Shown: positions 32,858-37,833 of the stretch, piece by piece | Layout of the letters: every line of letters begins with the position of its first letter | Position numbering within the stretch: position 1 is the stretch's first letter | DNA from: Methanosarcinaceae archaeon | Lineage (GTDB): Archaea; Halobacteriota; Methanosarcinia; Methanosarcinales; Methanosarcinaceae | Direction of reading: 5' to 3' | DNA: 64,000 nucleotides | NCBI GenBank assembly: GCA_023544565.1 | Contig: JAMJFS010000001.1 | Coordinates: 67,071-131,070, forward strand | Program-made: the position numbers and the translations under genes | The notes under the pieces: model-generated | What the model was told of the DNA's origin: nothing | The model's input: only the letters and a program-made list of their open reading frames with translations | Database searches by the model: none

Positions 32858-34918
32858 ATGGGGGAATATATGACAAAAATGTCACAGTTAGAAGACCATA
32901 TCAAAGAATTGGAAGAGATCCAGCGATATAATCGTGGACTTATCGAAGCCAGTATCGATCCTATGCTTACAACAGATACTGATGGCATAATCACTGACGT
33001 GAACGAGCAGATGGTGAATATAACCGGACATTCACGGAAAAGGCTCATTGGAACTCCTTTTAAAGAATATTTTACAGATCCTGAAGAAGCATATGAAGGT
33101 ATCAAAGAAACACTCGCCGAAAAGATGGTCAGGGATTATGAACTCACACTGATATCCCAAACAGGTAAACAGATCCCTGTATCTTACAATGCTACTGTAT
33201 TTACTGATGCAGAAGGAAACGTTAAGGGTGTTTTCGCAGTTGCGCGCGACATAACTGAATATAAGAAAATGGAACAGGAGATCAAGGAATCACAGAGGTA
33301 TAACAGGGGTTTGATCGAAAGCAGTATTGATGCAATGCTTACAACAGATACTGATGGCATAATAACTGACGTGAATGAGCAGATGATACGTATCACAGGA
33401 CGACTACGCGAACAACTTATTGGAACTCCTTTTAAAGAATATTTCACAAATCCTGAAGTAGCATATGAGGGGATTATAAAAACACTTTCTGAAAAAATGG
33501 TACGAGATTATGAACTCACGCTGGTATCGCGGGCAGGTAAAGAATTTCCAGTATCATATAATGCAACCGTGTTTACTGATGCAAGCGGATACGTAAAAGG
33601 TGTTTTTGCAGTTGCCCGTGATATGACTGAACATAAACGGCTTGAAAAAGAACTAAAGAGCTACACCGAGAATCTGGAAGTTAAGGTTAATGAACGCACC
33701 GAAGAATTAAAGATACAACAGGAGAGAGAATCTTCATACAATCAGATACTTACTACACTAAATGCATCTATAGACCTGAGCATCATGCTTAAAAATGGGT
33801 TGAATGAAATTGTGCAACACCTGAATGCACCTTTTGGGGTGATATATCTATACGATATCGAAGAAAATGTGTTAAAAACAGCAGCAACCCATGCTGTAAA
33901 AAAAGAGTTGTTGACTGCGCAATTTGAGGTGGGCGAAGGTATTCCGGGAGAGGCTGCACTTGAGCGCAAAACACTGATAATCAAGGACATACCACAAGAT
34001 GAGAGATACCATATCGATTTTGGGGTTATGGAAGCTAATCCAAAAACCATAATGAGTATTCCAATTGTTTTTCGCAAGAACCTTCTTGGAACGATCGTGA
34101 TCGGATTCTTGACAGATGTTTCAGAGGATACACAACAGTTCTTACAGCGGATTGTGAGCCAGTTTGGAATTGCCATTAACAATGCCCAGTCGTATGATAT
34201 GGTTCAGAATATGGCACAAGAACTTCAGGAATACTCAGGACAACTGGAAAAATCCAACCAATTAAAAGACCTCTTTACAGATATCCTGCGCCATGACCTG
34301 CTCAATCCTGCCGGACTTGTACGTGGATTCACAGATGTTTTGTTGTCGAAAGAAATCGATGAAAAGAACAAAGAACTACTTAAAAAAGTACACAACAATA
34401 ACGAAAAACTTATTGACCTTATAGAAACAGCATCGAAGTTTGCCAAACTTGAAAGTACAGAGGAACTTGAATTTGAGCGCAATGATATTGGCATAATCTT
34501 TAAAAACGTTGTAGATAATTTTGCACAACTGGCAGAAGATAAGGAAATGACAATCGAGTTTCTCGCAGATGGTGAATATTTTGCAAATGTGAACCCTATC
34601 ATCGAGGATGTGTTCTCAAACCTGTTGTCCAATGCTATCAAATATAGCCCCAAGGGCAGCCGGATAATTTTGGATATCCAGGATGCTGACCCTGACTGGA
34701 GAATTTCGGTCACTGATTTTGGATTTGGGATCGCGGATGAGGACAAAACAAAACTGTTCCAGCGCTTTAAGCGTGTGGATAAAAAGGGTATCAAAGGCAC
34801 AGGACTTGGGCTTGCAATTGGCAAGCGGATCGTTGAACTTCACGGCGGAGATGTGGGTATTGAAAATAATCCTGAGGGACAGGGAAGTGTATTTTGGGTA
34901 ACGATTGAAAAAGCGTGA
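32858..34918 (+). CDS. PAS-PAS-GAF sensor histidine kinase
   Basis: 686 residues without transmembrane segments. Two PAS domains (about 27-140 and 145-260) are near copies of each other, including DTDGIITDVNEQM and GTPFKEYFT, so one arose by tandem duplication. A coiled coil (LEVKVNERTEELKIQQERE) leads to a GAF domain (about 300-450). The His is in LRHDLLNPAGLV (about 478), the N-box in NLLSNAIKYSP and the G-box in GTGLGLAIGKRI. The catalytic half is close to the split kinase at 197-3244. No receiver gene is beside it. ATG 32858 follows an AT-rich stretch; ATG 32870 is an alternative. Confidence 0.93.
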   Translation: MGEYMTKMSQLEDHIKELEEIQRYNRGLIEASIDPMLTTDTDGIITDVNEQMVNITGHSRKRLIGTPFKEYFTDPEEAYEGIKETLAEKMVRDYELTLISQTGKQIPVSYNATVFTDAEGNVKGVFAVARDITEYKKMEQEIKESQRYNRGLIESSIDAMLTTDTDGIITDVNEQMIRITGRLREQLIGTPFKEYFTNPEVAYEGIIKTLSEKMVRDYELTLVSRAGKEFPVSYNATVFTDASGYVKGVFAVARDMTEHKRLEKELKSYTENLEVKVNERTEELKIQQERESSYNQILTTLNASIDLSIMLKNGLNEIVQHLNAPFGVIYLYDIEENVLKTAATHAVKKELLTAQFEVGEGIPGEAALERKTLIIKDIPQDERYHIDFGVMEANPKTIMSIPIVFRKNLLGTIVIGFLTDVSEDTQQFLQRIVSQFGIAINNAQSYDMVQNMAQELQEYSGQLEKSNQLKDLFTDILRHDLLNPAGLVRGFTDVLLSKEIDEKNKELLKKVHNNNEKLIDLIETASKFAKLESTEELEFERNDIGIIFKNVVDNFAQLAEDKEMTIEFLADGEYFANVNPIIEDVFSNLLSNAIKYSPKGSRIILDIQDADPDWRISVTDFGFGIADEDKTKLFQRFKRVDKKGIKGTGLGLAIGKRIVELHGGDVGIENNPEGQGSVFWVTIEKA

Positions 34919-34960
34919 TTACGATTGAAAAAGCGTGATTACGATTGAAAAAGCGTGATT
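34901..34960 (+). repeat. Three tandem copies of a 20-bp unit at kinase 3' end
   Basis: The unit ACGATTGAAAAAGCGTGATT occurs at 34901, 34921 and 34941 without change. The first copy encodes the kinase C-terminus and its stop. A partly matching fourth start (ACGGTTACAAAG) follows. Typical slippage or unequal-crossover expansion. Confidence 0.93.
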
Positions 34961-35236: not shown

Positions 35237-35638
35237 TCACAACTCGCTCATTATAGCAGCCAGTTCATCACTGTTCAAATAACCATTGCTAACGAATTCC
35301 TCGTTACTGTCAAATATTATCATATTCGGTGCATTAGTAACCCCATACTTGGCTGCAAATTCCTCATTCAACGCTCTGTCCATTACCACAACAGCCGCCC
35401 TGTTGCCAACTGTATTGGATATTGATTCGACTATGGGCTGCTGGTCTTTGCAGTTTGAACAAAATGCCTCATTAAAATAAACAACAACGGGCTTGCCGGT
35501 ATTAAATGCAGAACCAATGTCAGGATAAACGTTAGTCTCTGATACTATAGGCATTTGCTGCGGCTTTTCAGTACAGCCCGACAGTGTCATTGCTGTGACC
35601 AGTACGATCACAGTCAAGACCAACGTTTTCACATTCAT
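35237..35638 (-). CDS. Thioredoxin-like lipoprotein
   Basis: 133 residues. Signal peptide with lipobox LSGC (Cys about residue 22), so it is tethered to the outer face of the membrane. Thioredoxin fold with CSNC active site in FNEAFCSNCKDQ and a cis-Pro region TNAPNMIIF. It should reduce, oxidise or carry thiols outside the cell. Five bases after the dodecin gene and probably the last gene of the operon from 37626. Two more such lipoproteins are at 63178 and 63664. Confidence 0.87.
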   Translation of the reverse strand: MNVKTLVLTVIVLVTAMTLSGCTEKPQQMPIVSETNVYPDIGSAFNTGKPVVVYFNEAFCSNCKDQQPIVESISNTVGNRAAVVVMDRALNEEFAAKYGVTNAPNMIIFDSNEEFVSNGYLNSDELAAIMSEL

Positions 35639-35643
35639 AACAC

Positions 35644-35853
35644 TTACTCAAGAAGGATCTCAACCCTGCACTTAAAGAGTATCACCTTGTTGTCCTCAAC
35701 TTCCACATCGAAATTCTTTACATTCACCTTTGTGATGTTACTTTTGGATTTGAAGATCGGAAGTTCCGATGCATCATTCACTGCACTTTTCAATGCCTCT
35801 TCCCAGCTGTCCGGTGACGAACCTATTGTCTCAATTATTTTTACTATTCCCAT
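35644..35853 (-). CDS. Dodecin family protein
   Basis: 69 residues from ATG 35853, preceded by GGAGG; the longer frame to 35868 has no better site. The beta-alpha-beta-beta pattern (VKIIETIGSSPDSWEEALKSAV...) fits dodecin, a dodecameric flavin-binding protein thought to buffer FMN/riboflavin. The last strand, VILFKCRVEILLE, is typical. A flavin store beside a ferredoxin/GXGXG operon hints at flavin-dependent redox chemistry. Confidence 0.8.
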   Translation of the reverse strand: MGIVKIIETIGSSPDSWEEALKSAVNDASELPIFKSKSNITKVNVKNFDVEVEDNKVILFKCRVEILLE

Positions 35854-35901
35854 ATTATCTACCTCCATTTTCCATAATATTCTAAAGTCATTATCAAATG
35901 A

Positions 35902-36882
35902 TCATTCTATTTTCCGTTTTACCACAGAACCATCCCGCATGTGGACAGTGACGTATTTCTCTTTTTCTTCTTCGACCTCATACTTGTTATAGAGCATCGA
36001 TTCCACGCGCCCGATGTCAAGTAAACTGCGAAGCCATGTACTGTCATTTCCCTTCATCTTCGACTTTCCCGCAGGAGGACTTGTTTTGACCTTCTTTTTA
36101 GAGTATATCACACCGCCTTTCATCCCGGCACCAACATATCCTTTTGCATCCCTCAACACCAATGAGCCGCCTTTCATATATGCACCTGCAAACTCACCAA
36201 CTGTGCCAAGCATAACAACAGTCCCGCCATCAAGGTGTGCGCCTGTGTTCATCCCACTATTTCCTTTGATGATTATCGTGCCGTGTCTCATCAGCAAACC
36301 CGTGCCGTTGTAAGTATCACCTTCGACAACGATATTTGCCATACAATTGCAACGTGCTCCAAGTGTTCCGCGAAGTATCCCATCATCAAGTGTCAATTGC
36401 CGCTCATTTTCATCAAATGTATTTGATACAAGTATATCGGTGTCAAGACAGTTGCAAAAAATATCAGTGATCGAACGGAACTTCTTGTAACCCTGCACAT
36501 CAGATCTAACTTCAATAATGTTGCCCCAGGGCTCTGCCACGTCTCCACTTACATAAAGTGTCCCTGAAACCATCCCCATGCCGGCTTCTTCACCGACGTT
36601 CCCGTCAACGAACACACGCCCTGCAGGTATAAAATTACCGCTCCCTCCAAGATGTTTTATGTCAACACCAAGACTGTAAGCGAACCGCGCGCCTACGTTG
36701 CCTTTGATGTGGATATCCGAGCCGCTCTTTGAGGCATCAACAAGATCTGAATACGTAAACTGTGTGCCCGACTGATGTGGAATTACTGAAGCGGGGTCAA
36801 GTCGCTGGTTCTGCCAGTAAAAATCAAATGTGTAATCACATACATTATCGACCGGCGAGGTTAGTTCGATCTTGATACCCAT
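35902..36882 (-). CDS. GXGXG beta-helix protein (GltB-C/FwdC-like)
   Basis: 326 residues from ATG 36882 (GGGTGAT upstream). The centre has repeated G-x-G motifs of the GXGXG right-handed helix (IHIKGNVGARFAYSLGV; GNVGEEAGMGMVSGTLYVSGDV; VVEGDTYNGTGLLMRHGTIIIKGNSG; VGEFAGAYMKGGSLVLRDAKG), as in the C-terminal domain of glutamate synthase and in formylmethanofuran dehydrogenase subunit C. It has neither the GltB catalytic domains nor an Fwd operon around it. A Cys pair (CNCLDTD; RCNCM) lies between the halves. A C-terminal ~75-residue tail is unusual. Probably a structural subunit of a redox complex with the ferredoxin beside it. Confidence 0.85.
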   Translation of the reverse strand: MGIKIELTSPVDNVCDYTFDFYWQNQRLDPASVIPHQSGTQFTYSDLVDASKSGSDIHIKGNVGARFAYSLGVDIKHLGGSGNFIPAGRVFVDGNVGEEAGMGMVSGTLYVSGDVAEPWGNIIEVRSDVQGYKKFRSITDIFCNCLDTDILVSNTFDENERQLTLDDGILRGTLGARCNCMANIVVEGDTYNGTGLLMRHGTIIIKGNSGMNTGAHLDGGTVVMLGTVGEFAGAYMKGGSLVLRDAKGYVGAGMKGGVIYSKKKVKTSPPAGKSKMKGNDSTWLRSLLDIGRVESMLYNKYEVEEEKEKYVTVHMRDGSVVKRKIE

Positions 36883-36890
36883 TGAACATA

Positions 36891-37259
36891 TCACCCGTGA
36901 ATGAGGGCAGGAAGGCAGCGTGTGCAAACCCAAATGCTTTCCATTTCATGCCTCATTGGAAGGAGATACCTTGTATCTTCACCTTCGCCACAACTGAAGC
37001 ACTTGATGGAGATATCCGTGGTCTTTTTGTGCGCCTCCGCTTTCTCGGCATTGAACTCGACAGTCTGGCGTTCTTCAATTGTTATTGCGTCTTCGGGGCA
37101 TATGCCCATACAAAACCCCATGCCGTCACAAAGTTCTTCTGACATAACCTTTGCCTTGCCATCGATTATCTGGATAGCGCCCTCGGCGCAAGGGGATACG
37201 CACTTGCCACATCCTGTGCATTTGTCCTCATCTATGTGTACTATCATACGCTTAACCAT
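36891..37259 (-). CDS. 2x[4Fe-4S] ferredoxin with C-terminal Cys-rich extension
   Basis: 122 residues from ATG 37259. Cluster motifs CTGCGKCVSPCAEGAI (about 13-28) and CDGMGFCMGICPEDAI (about 44-59; first gap longer than standard). The C-terminal ~55 residues carry CFSCGEGED and VCTRCLPALIHG, like a small zinc ribbon or third metal site. It lies between the CGGC and GXGXG genes with gaps of 19 and 8 bases, so it should carry electrons for that complex. Confidence 0.9.
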   Translation of the reverse strand: MVKRMIVHIDEDKCTGCGKCVSPCAEGAIQIIDGKAKVMSEELCDGMGFCMGICPEDAITIEERQTVEFNAEKAEAHKKTTDISIKCFSCGEGEDTRYLLPMRHEMESIWVCTRCLPALIHG

Positions 37260-37278
37260 TTTACCATCTCCTTTGACA

Positions 37279-37626
37279 TTAATGATGTGTACCTTCAACA
37301 ACTTTTATTCCTGCATCCGTGATCGTCTTTCTGATCGAATCAATGTGCGGGCACTTTGGATAATCTTCCATCTTCATACATGAACTCAGGTGTACCACAT
37401 CTGCACCCATTTTCTTGATAGATTTTACAAGGCGATATACACGCCGTCCCGAACATCCGCCGCATGTGAAAAAGGCTATCATCTCTGCGTTCTCATCGTA
37501 ATCCTTGAAATACATTTTTCGTTTATTGAACGCCATGAAGCATCCAACGCCTGGACAGGCTTCAGATACTATATCGCACCTGACCACTGCGATCTTTGTG
37601 GGTTTTTCTTCTGTTATGACCTTCAC
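37279..37626 (-). CDS. CGGC-domain protein (putative metal-binding)
   Basis: 115 residues with FFTCGGCSGRRVYRLV at about 53-68, the signature of the CGGC domain, plus RCDIVSEACPGVGC near the N-terminus and HLSSCMKMEDYPKCPH near 80-95. The Cys pattern suggests binding of a metal or cluster. The family is not characterised. First gene of the minus-strand cluster down to 35237. Confidence 0.88.
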   Translation of the reverse strand: MKVITEEKPTKIAVVRCDIVSEACPGVGCFMAFNKRKMYFKDYDENAEMIAFFTCGGCSGRRVYRLVKSIKKMGADVVHLSSCMKMEDYPKCPHIDSIRKTITDAGIKVVEGTHH

Positions 37627-37833
37627 CTCGTTCTAAACATTCATTTAAATCATAATAATCTTGACGGAGATAGTTGGGGGTGCAATCTGCACGGAGGTAT
37701 CTATTCTCACTAATACTTAAATTGTCTAAAATATGATATAAAGATTTTCGAATTTTATCAACATAACAATGATAATTGATTCAAATGAGTGGGTGATGTT
37801 AAAAACAAGACACTAAGATTTCAAAAACATCAC

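Follow-up and report, generated by a model that had tools for sequence, protein, structure and literature searches.

This study investigated a cluster of five genes in a 64,000-nucleotide stretch of archaeal DNA (hereafter, the window) that comprises positions 67,071 to 131,070 of contig JAMJFS010000001.1 in the Methanosarcinaceae assembly GCA_023544565.1. The source genome (1.78 Mb in 72 contigs; G000 in our survey) belongs to the Methanosarcinaceae and resembles those of group 3 of the anaerobic methanotrophic archaea (ANME-3). The five genes, all intact on the minus strand at window positions 35237-37626, encode in order a CGGC-domain protein, a ferredoxin (Fd), a GXGXG beta-helix protein, a dodecin, and a thioredoxin-fold lipoprotein, and the gaps between them are approximately 19, 8, 48, and 5 nt. 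A first-pass annotation, made from the sequence alone, had reported these genes and their small gaps, and both were confirmed. The gap sizes suggest that the five genes share one transcript, and the only promoter-like B recognition element (BRE)/TATA and conserved block that we identified lies upstream of the CGGC gene. A scan for sigma-70 promoters and terminators, a method ill-suited to archaea, revealed no excess over shuffled sequence. At this locus, the closest named relatives include assemblies of ANME-3 obtained from the Haakon Mosby Mud Volcano, with a protein identity of 81-82%; other Methanosarcinaceae metagenome-assembled genomes reach 86%.

To describe the conservation of the cluster, we mapped the families of the CGGC protein, the ferredoxin, the type A GXGXG protein, and alSir (small low-spin sulfite reductase) in 133 Methanosarcinales genomes with a completeness of at least 85%, and genes within 3.5 kb of each other, as counted from gene coordinates, were considered adjacent. 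Genomes (G), loci (L), contigs (C), genera (g), and families (f) are referred to by the working handles of this set. The CGGC and ferredoxin genes were adjacent in 83 of 84 genomes and the ferredoxin and GXGXG genes in 61 of 61, and the CGGC and GXGXG genes were adjacent in 54 of 55 genomes outside Methanoperedens and in 0 of 22 within it. The proposal of the first-pass annotation that the genes belong together is thus borne out in relatives. Because the order is kept in dozens of genomes and a single promoter-like block precedes the CGGC gene, the set goes beyond chance, and these comparisons indicate that the five genes form a genuine operon, which is kept across methane-cycling archaea. Methanosarcina and the genera g3, g4, g7, and g11 (the last probably Methanimicrococcus-like) carry CGGC-Fd without GXGXG. 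The most economical reading of these distributions is that CGGC-Fd is the core, to which GXGXG, dodecin, and thioredoxin genes would have been added, or from which they would have been lost, by lineage.

Alignment of the DNA upstream of the ANME-3 loci revealed a 21-bp putative operator, TTATCATTRTTATGTTGATAA, which in the window occupies positions 37755-37775 (minus strand; TTATCATTGTTATGTTGATAA), comprises the inverted repeat TTATCA-N9-TGATAA, and is kept in relatives. A BRE/TATA-like element, CGAAAATCTTTATATC (37735-37750, minus strand), follows 4 nt downstream and was conserved, on inspection, in the aligned ANME-3 upstream regions. The operator occurs, identical or as an R-variant, before the same operon in seven ANME-3 loci. 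The identical 21-mer also precedes the operon in the ANME-2 loci L012, L013, and L019, whose GXGXG proteins are merely 63-64% identical, and a form with one mismatch was found in L087. Scanning the 133 genomes with up to two mismatches yielded 21 exact copies in 10 genomes, compared with approximately 0.005 expected under a first-order Markov model based on the composition of the window. All 21 copies lay upstream of a gene from one small set, namely this operon (eight copies, including that of G002, where a CGGC remnant precedes the ferredoxin), CooS-type carbon monoxide (CO) dehydrogenase (four, before cooS in G000, G131, G005, and G007, and one more in G130, where the contig ends, judged from the adjoining ferredoxin:thioredoxin reductase (FTR) gene, the same as next to the other cooS sites), alSir (two, in the ANME-2 genomes G008 and G009), an HAO-like multihaem cytochrome (one), a cupin (two), and a TrmB-family regulator (three). 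Among 345 genomes sampled from the phylum, the only ones that had a site with no more than one mismatch were five of those already identified. On the basis of these sites, it is highly probable that the operon belongs to a regulon with a common 21-bp site. Sites with one or two mismatches in Methanoperedens, Methanococcoides, and others precede unrelated genes and were rejected as background; the single one-mismatch sites of two Methanoperedens genomes, G027:C103:44854 ahead of a phage-tail-like gene and G032:C52:651 ahead of a response-regulator gene, are probably chance matches.

The regulator of the source genome (G000:C4:40030-40836; 269 aa) is a member of the TrmB family by its winged helix (PF01978, E = 1.1e-18; 67 bits against a cut-off of 25.6). 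An alignment-based search of the order detected it in exactly 10 of the 133 genomes, with only a fragment of it in G007. All 10 carry the operator, and 10 of the 11 operator genomes carry the regulator, the sole exception being G008 (92% complete). Three genomes with a CGGC-Fd-dodecin cluster (G003, G004, and G102) have neither operator nor regulator. The hypergeometric P value of this co-occurrence is 3e-14, which overstates the independence of genomes from only three lineages. The regulator gene lies directly behind the operator in G002, G005, G006 (two mismatches), G009, and G103 (one mismatch); in G000, G130, and G132, it follows a TTATCA-N9-TGATAA repeat that matches fully. The regulator gene of G009 and a DUF2249-GXGXG operon point away from each other, and a single operator lies in the space between the two. 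Methanolobus and Methanosarcina have instead a divergent HxlR-type regulator beside alSir(-CGGC-Fd).

The operator is located just upstream of the BRE/TATA in most of the regulated genes and just before the start codon in the regulator genes, several of which have a TATA-like element upstream of it. OxsR of Haloferax volcanii is a TrmB-family thiol-based activator of the oxidative-stress response and likewise has its motif upstream of the BRE/TATA (PMC9426492). The two systems share the TrmB-family DNA-binding domain, this motif position for activation, and redox-defence targets. However, OxsR is a single-domain protein with the sensor cysteine C24 and a CG-rich motif (PMC9426492), whereas the present regulator has a C-terminal domain and an AT-rich 21-bp site. 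Its winged helix-turn-helix contains no invariant cysteine, and its only invariant one, C197, lies in the C-terminal part; the regulator is therefore not a single-domain thiol regulator of the OxsR type. Because the site lies upstream of the BRE/TATA in the targets and before the start codon in the regulator genes, the analogy with OxsR suggests activation of the targets and repression of the regulator's own gene.

We then considered the genes linked to the operators or to the cluster. These encode rubrerythrins, the flavodiiron protein FprA, FTR, superoxide reductase, an AhpD-like CMD protein, a cupin, a DUF166 protein, alSir, CooS, and the HAO-like cytochrome. The rubrerythrin-FprA pair directly precedes CGGC-Fd in L087 and L088, and in ANME-3 it precedes FTR-operator-CooS; FprA matched the NCBIfam family anaerobic nitric oxide reductase flavorubredoxin below its cut-off. 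DUF166 genes lie behind the regulator gene in G000, G002, G005, and G103 and just upstream of CGGC-Fd in loci of Methanococcoides and Methanohalophilus, namely L017, where it stands between alSir and CGGC, and L071. This linkage to both the TrmB-family regulator and alSir-CGGC suggests that DUF166 belongs to this system as a component overlooked so far; examples are the proteins at L017 8444-9241 and L158 5270-6019. The neighbourhood links converge on oxidant defence, and we regard a stress role of the operon, against oxygen or similar oxidants, as fairly likely. The regulon would be a small set of stress-defence genes, previously undescribed. Chadwick et al. 2022 (PMC9012536) contains no mention of dodecin, CGGC, FwdC, GXGXG, CooS, rubrerythrin, or TrmB. 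The first-pass annotation grouped the genes correctly but did not notice the operator or the TrmB-family regulon, through which the operon is connected with oxidant-defence genes, and we consider this regulon more interesting than the odd gene set itself.

The operator sites before cooS in four genomes would also fit a CO-responsive regulon, in which CO would be both the signal for the regulator and the substrate of CooS, with the ferredoxin taking up the electrons. This explanation appears improbable, as alSir, the cupin, and the HAO-like cytochrome have the same site with no obvious role in CO metabolism, and the CGGC-Fd of Methanosarcina is linked to alSir rather than to cooS. In the hcp-ferredoxin (frdX) nitrosative-stress loci of Desulfovibrio, a CDGxGxC-type ferredoxin stands beside a stress enzyme, as it may here. 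No Hcp was seen in the present system, which instead has CooS, a member of the same Prismane superfamily.

The linkage to alSir was examined further. An alSir gene (Group I Dsr-LP) lies within 3.5 kb of the CGGC gene in 64 of 87 genomes, including every genome with both genes in g3, g4, g6 (Methanococcoides), g9 (Methanolobus), and g12 (Methanosarcina), so that CGGC-Fd is its neighbour in many Methanosarcinaceae. It precedes the block in Methanolobus, Methanococcoides, and Methanosarcina, whereas the alSir of ANME-3 is on a separate contig, beside rubrerythrin and an HdrE/HdrD-like pair, and that of the source genome is unlinked to CGGC-Fd. The HdrE-like and HdrD-like genes follow alSir in both ANME-3 and Methanohalophilus (L080/L082 and G000:C13), and the ANME-3 rubrerythrin gene is just upstream. 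In situ, ANME-2 express the enzyme well, and its role was stated as unclear (PMC6286981); we found no description of the CGGC-Fd-GXGXG block as its partner in the literature searched. The suggestion of the first-pass annotation that a catalytic partner is encoded elsewhere is plausible to this extent, since alSir adjoins the cluster in many relatives and is on another contig here. It is possible, though tentative, that the ferredoxin, with the CGGC protein and the GXGXG scaffold, feeds a terminal reductase encoded elsewhere, of which alSir is the best candidate. The same linkage, the shared operator in ANME-2, and the in situ expression of alSir could also be read as dedicated electron delivery to alSir, with the enzyme serving to assimilate sulfur or to make coenzyme M instead of countering stress. 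We consider this unlikely, given that the operator also precedes the CooS, cupin, and HAO-like cytochrome genes and that rubrerythrin, FprA, superoxide reductase, and AhpD-like genes are nearby. Moreover, the source genome has a separate assimilatory sulfite reductase beside CysH-, TusA-, and Sat-like genes.

The first gene of the operon (37279-37626, minus strand) encodes a 115-aa protein with a GTG start in the conserved context GAGGTGAAG. It belongs to the CGGC family, covering the profile over 1-106 of 106 positions (PF08821, E = 2e-35; 121.6 bits against a gathering score of 27). Seven cysteines are invariant in the alignment of relatives (C17, C24, C29, C55, C58, C83, and C92). The AlphaFold2 model is a Rossmann-like alpha/beta fold with a mean predicted local distance difference test (pLDDT) score of 80.5; Foldseek returned no PDB match at E < 0.001, and none of the papers listed by a literature search for "CGGC domain" contained the term. 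In the ANME-2 genome G002 (L140, C114:4285-4305 and downstream), CGGC is reduced to a C-terminal remnant between the operator and the ferredoxin; the module can therefore lose CGGC.

The ferredoxin (36891-37259, minus strand; 122 aa; Fer4 families) was conserved in 92 genomes. It contains one complete CxxCxxCxxxC motif and a second motif, CDGMGFCxGxCP, in which methionine replaces the second cysteine. As this cysteine is missing in all aligned relatives, the protein is not a 2[4Fe-4S] ferredoxin with two full motifs. The extra cysteine-rich end noticed in the first-pass annotation is a C-terminal CxxC-x21-CxxC ribbon, and the cysteines of the ribbon and of both motifs are invariant in the aligned relatives. 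The cysteine-rich CGGC protein, the ribbon, and the stress-regulon context would be compatible with a module that stores metal or iron-sulfur clusters or repairs oxidant-damaged proteins. The operon contains no Suf/Isc or other assembly genes, and we regard such a module as quite unlikely.

The third gene (35902-36882, minus strand; start corrected to the ATG at 36882) encodes a stand-alone right-handed GXGXG beta-helix protein of type A with 326 aa (PF01493, E = 1.1e-9; FwdC-like TIGR03122, E = 3.3e-16). The AlphaFold2 model (pLDDT 91.5) is a right-handed helix, and its significant Foldseek matches were solely the helices of FwdC/FhcC and glutamate synthase (GOGAT). These exclusive matches favour the proposal of the first-pass annotation that the genes build a new flavin/iron-sulfur enzyme complex on the helix, similar to Fwd or GOGAT. 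However, the TIGR03122 score is 59.3 bits against a cut-off of 130.65, no Fwd or GOGAT catalytic gene was seen among the recurrent neighbours in 75 loci, and the GltB-C partners (glutaminase and FMN domains) were seen neither in the window cluster nor among the recurrent neighbours in relatives, in agreement with the earlier remark that the helix lacks its usual partners. Both a FwdC/FmdC and a glutamate synthase identity were rejected on scores and neighbourhood. The protein shares the GXGXG helix with FwdC/FmdC but has a longer N-terminal part, and the genome also encodes a separate FwdC-like gene. Because Methanosarcina and relatives have CGGC-Fd but neither GXGXG nor dodecin, no fixed five-part complex is indicated, and the flavin/iron-sulfur complex is very improbable. 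The claim that no known pathway has this gene set held, in that we found no such pathway described. A literature search for "tributyrin esterase" and Methanosarcina found nothing useful.

In Methanoperedens, the neighbours of the GXGXG gene (FtsZ-like, MutS-like, and others) are lineage-specific, with no consistent partner. The type A gene stands behind an FtsZ-like gene in many of these loci (L027-L078) and behind a siroheme reductase with a ferredoxin domain in three (L047, L048, and L058). A second, shorter paralog of approximately 300 aa (type B; G000:C5:22302-23219 in the source genome, L001/L083) occurs in all ANME-3 genomes searched, in most other ANME-like genomes, in G001 (probably an ethane oxidiser), in f6 (probably Methanotrichaceae), and in f10; it was not found in the other Methanosarcinaceae genomes searched. 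It adjoins cytochrome c biogenesis genes in ANME-3 loci, and no common neighbour was found in other lineages.

The dodecin gene (35644-35853, minus strand; 69 aa; start corrected to the ATG at 35853, preceded by GGAGGT) encodes a member of the dodecin family (PF07311, E = 6.4e-15; 55.7 bits against a cut-off of 22.5). Outside Methanoperedens, dodecins occur in 12 genomes of the order, in all 12 inside this cluster. The protein aligns with most solved dodecins in its N-terminal half alone and matches best the calcium dodecin SecE2 (PDB 3onr); it is of the same family as SecE2 and the flavin dodecins but has diverged in the C-terminal half. Its sole tryptophan is W17 of an SWE motif (eight aligned members), and the C-terminal half has none. 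The flavin-stacking tryptophan of flavin-binding dodecins lies, we presume, in the second strand region. Because no tryptophan occupies that position, flavin storage, as proposed in the first-pass annotation, is doubtful. The thioredoxin-fold lipoprotein (35237-35638, minus strand; 133 aa; LSGC lipobox and CSNC active site; PF00085, E = 2.7e-11) adjoins the cluster in the ANME-3 loci L004-L007 and the ANME-2 locus L019, and is thus present in ANME-3 and at least one ANME-2. Elsewhere in the window, at 34900-34960, the 20-bp unit aatcacgctttttcaatcgt (minus strand) is repeated in tandem approximately three times, at and just past the end of a convergent PAS histidine kinase gene.

On the basis of these findings, we consider it somewhat likely that this five-gene operon is part of an autoregulated regulon for oxidative/nitrosative stress in ANME archaea and that its products act as a redox module. 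The TrmB-family regulator would bind the 21-bp site next to the BRE/TATA, putatively in response to an oxidant, and activate the operon and cooS, and in relatives also alSir and the HAO-like cytochrome and cupin genes; at its own gene, with the site between the TATA and the start codon, it would act as a repressor. The ferredoxin, through its cluster and ribbon, would carry low-potential electrons, with the CGGC protein as a redox or metal partner and the GXGXG helix as a scaffold with no catalytic residues of its own. The likely recipients would be alSir, a siroheme reductase of the sulfite/nitrite type, and other detoxifying enzymes encoded elsewhere, and the dodecin and the external thioredoxin lipoprotein may have joined in ANME lineages. 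Several findings weigh against this proposal. The alSir gene of the source genome has no recognisable operator copy, as well as lying on another contig, and the G131 regulator gene has no recognisable site upstream. The GXGXG partner is absent from Methanosarcina, g3, g4, g7, and g11, so the module is not fixed, and CooS and alSir are equally compatible with CO, sulfite, or nitrite as the signal. Furthermore, the operator and the regulator are confined to three lineages; the ancestral operon would therefore be under other control elsewhere.

ANME archaea are strict anaerobes that are not culturable alone, and little is known of how they survive oxidants at seep interfaces. A regulon defined from sequence makes specific genes, their putative regulator, and its putative binding site available for testing. 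For alSir, a siroheme reductase that biochemists have known since the 1980s, it suggests a possible physiological partner and setting. The CGGC-Fd part is also present in G104 (C1:3921297-3921635 and C1:3920094-3920456), which is probably the genetically tractable Methanosarcina acetivorans. This TrmB-family regulon may, as a tentative suggestion, represent the oxidant defence of marine ANME-2 and ANME-3, in which CGGC-Fd-GXGXG would be the missing partner of an alSir that detoxifies sulfite, nitrite, or NO-type oxidants.

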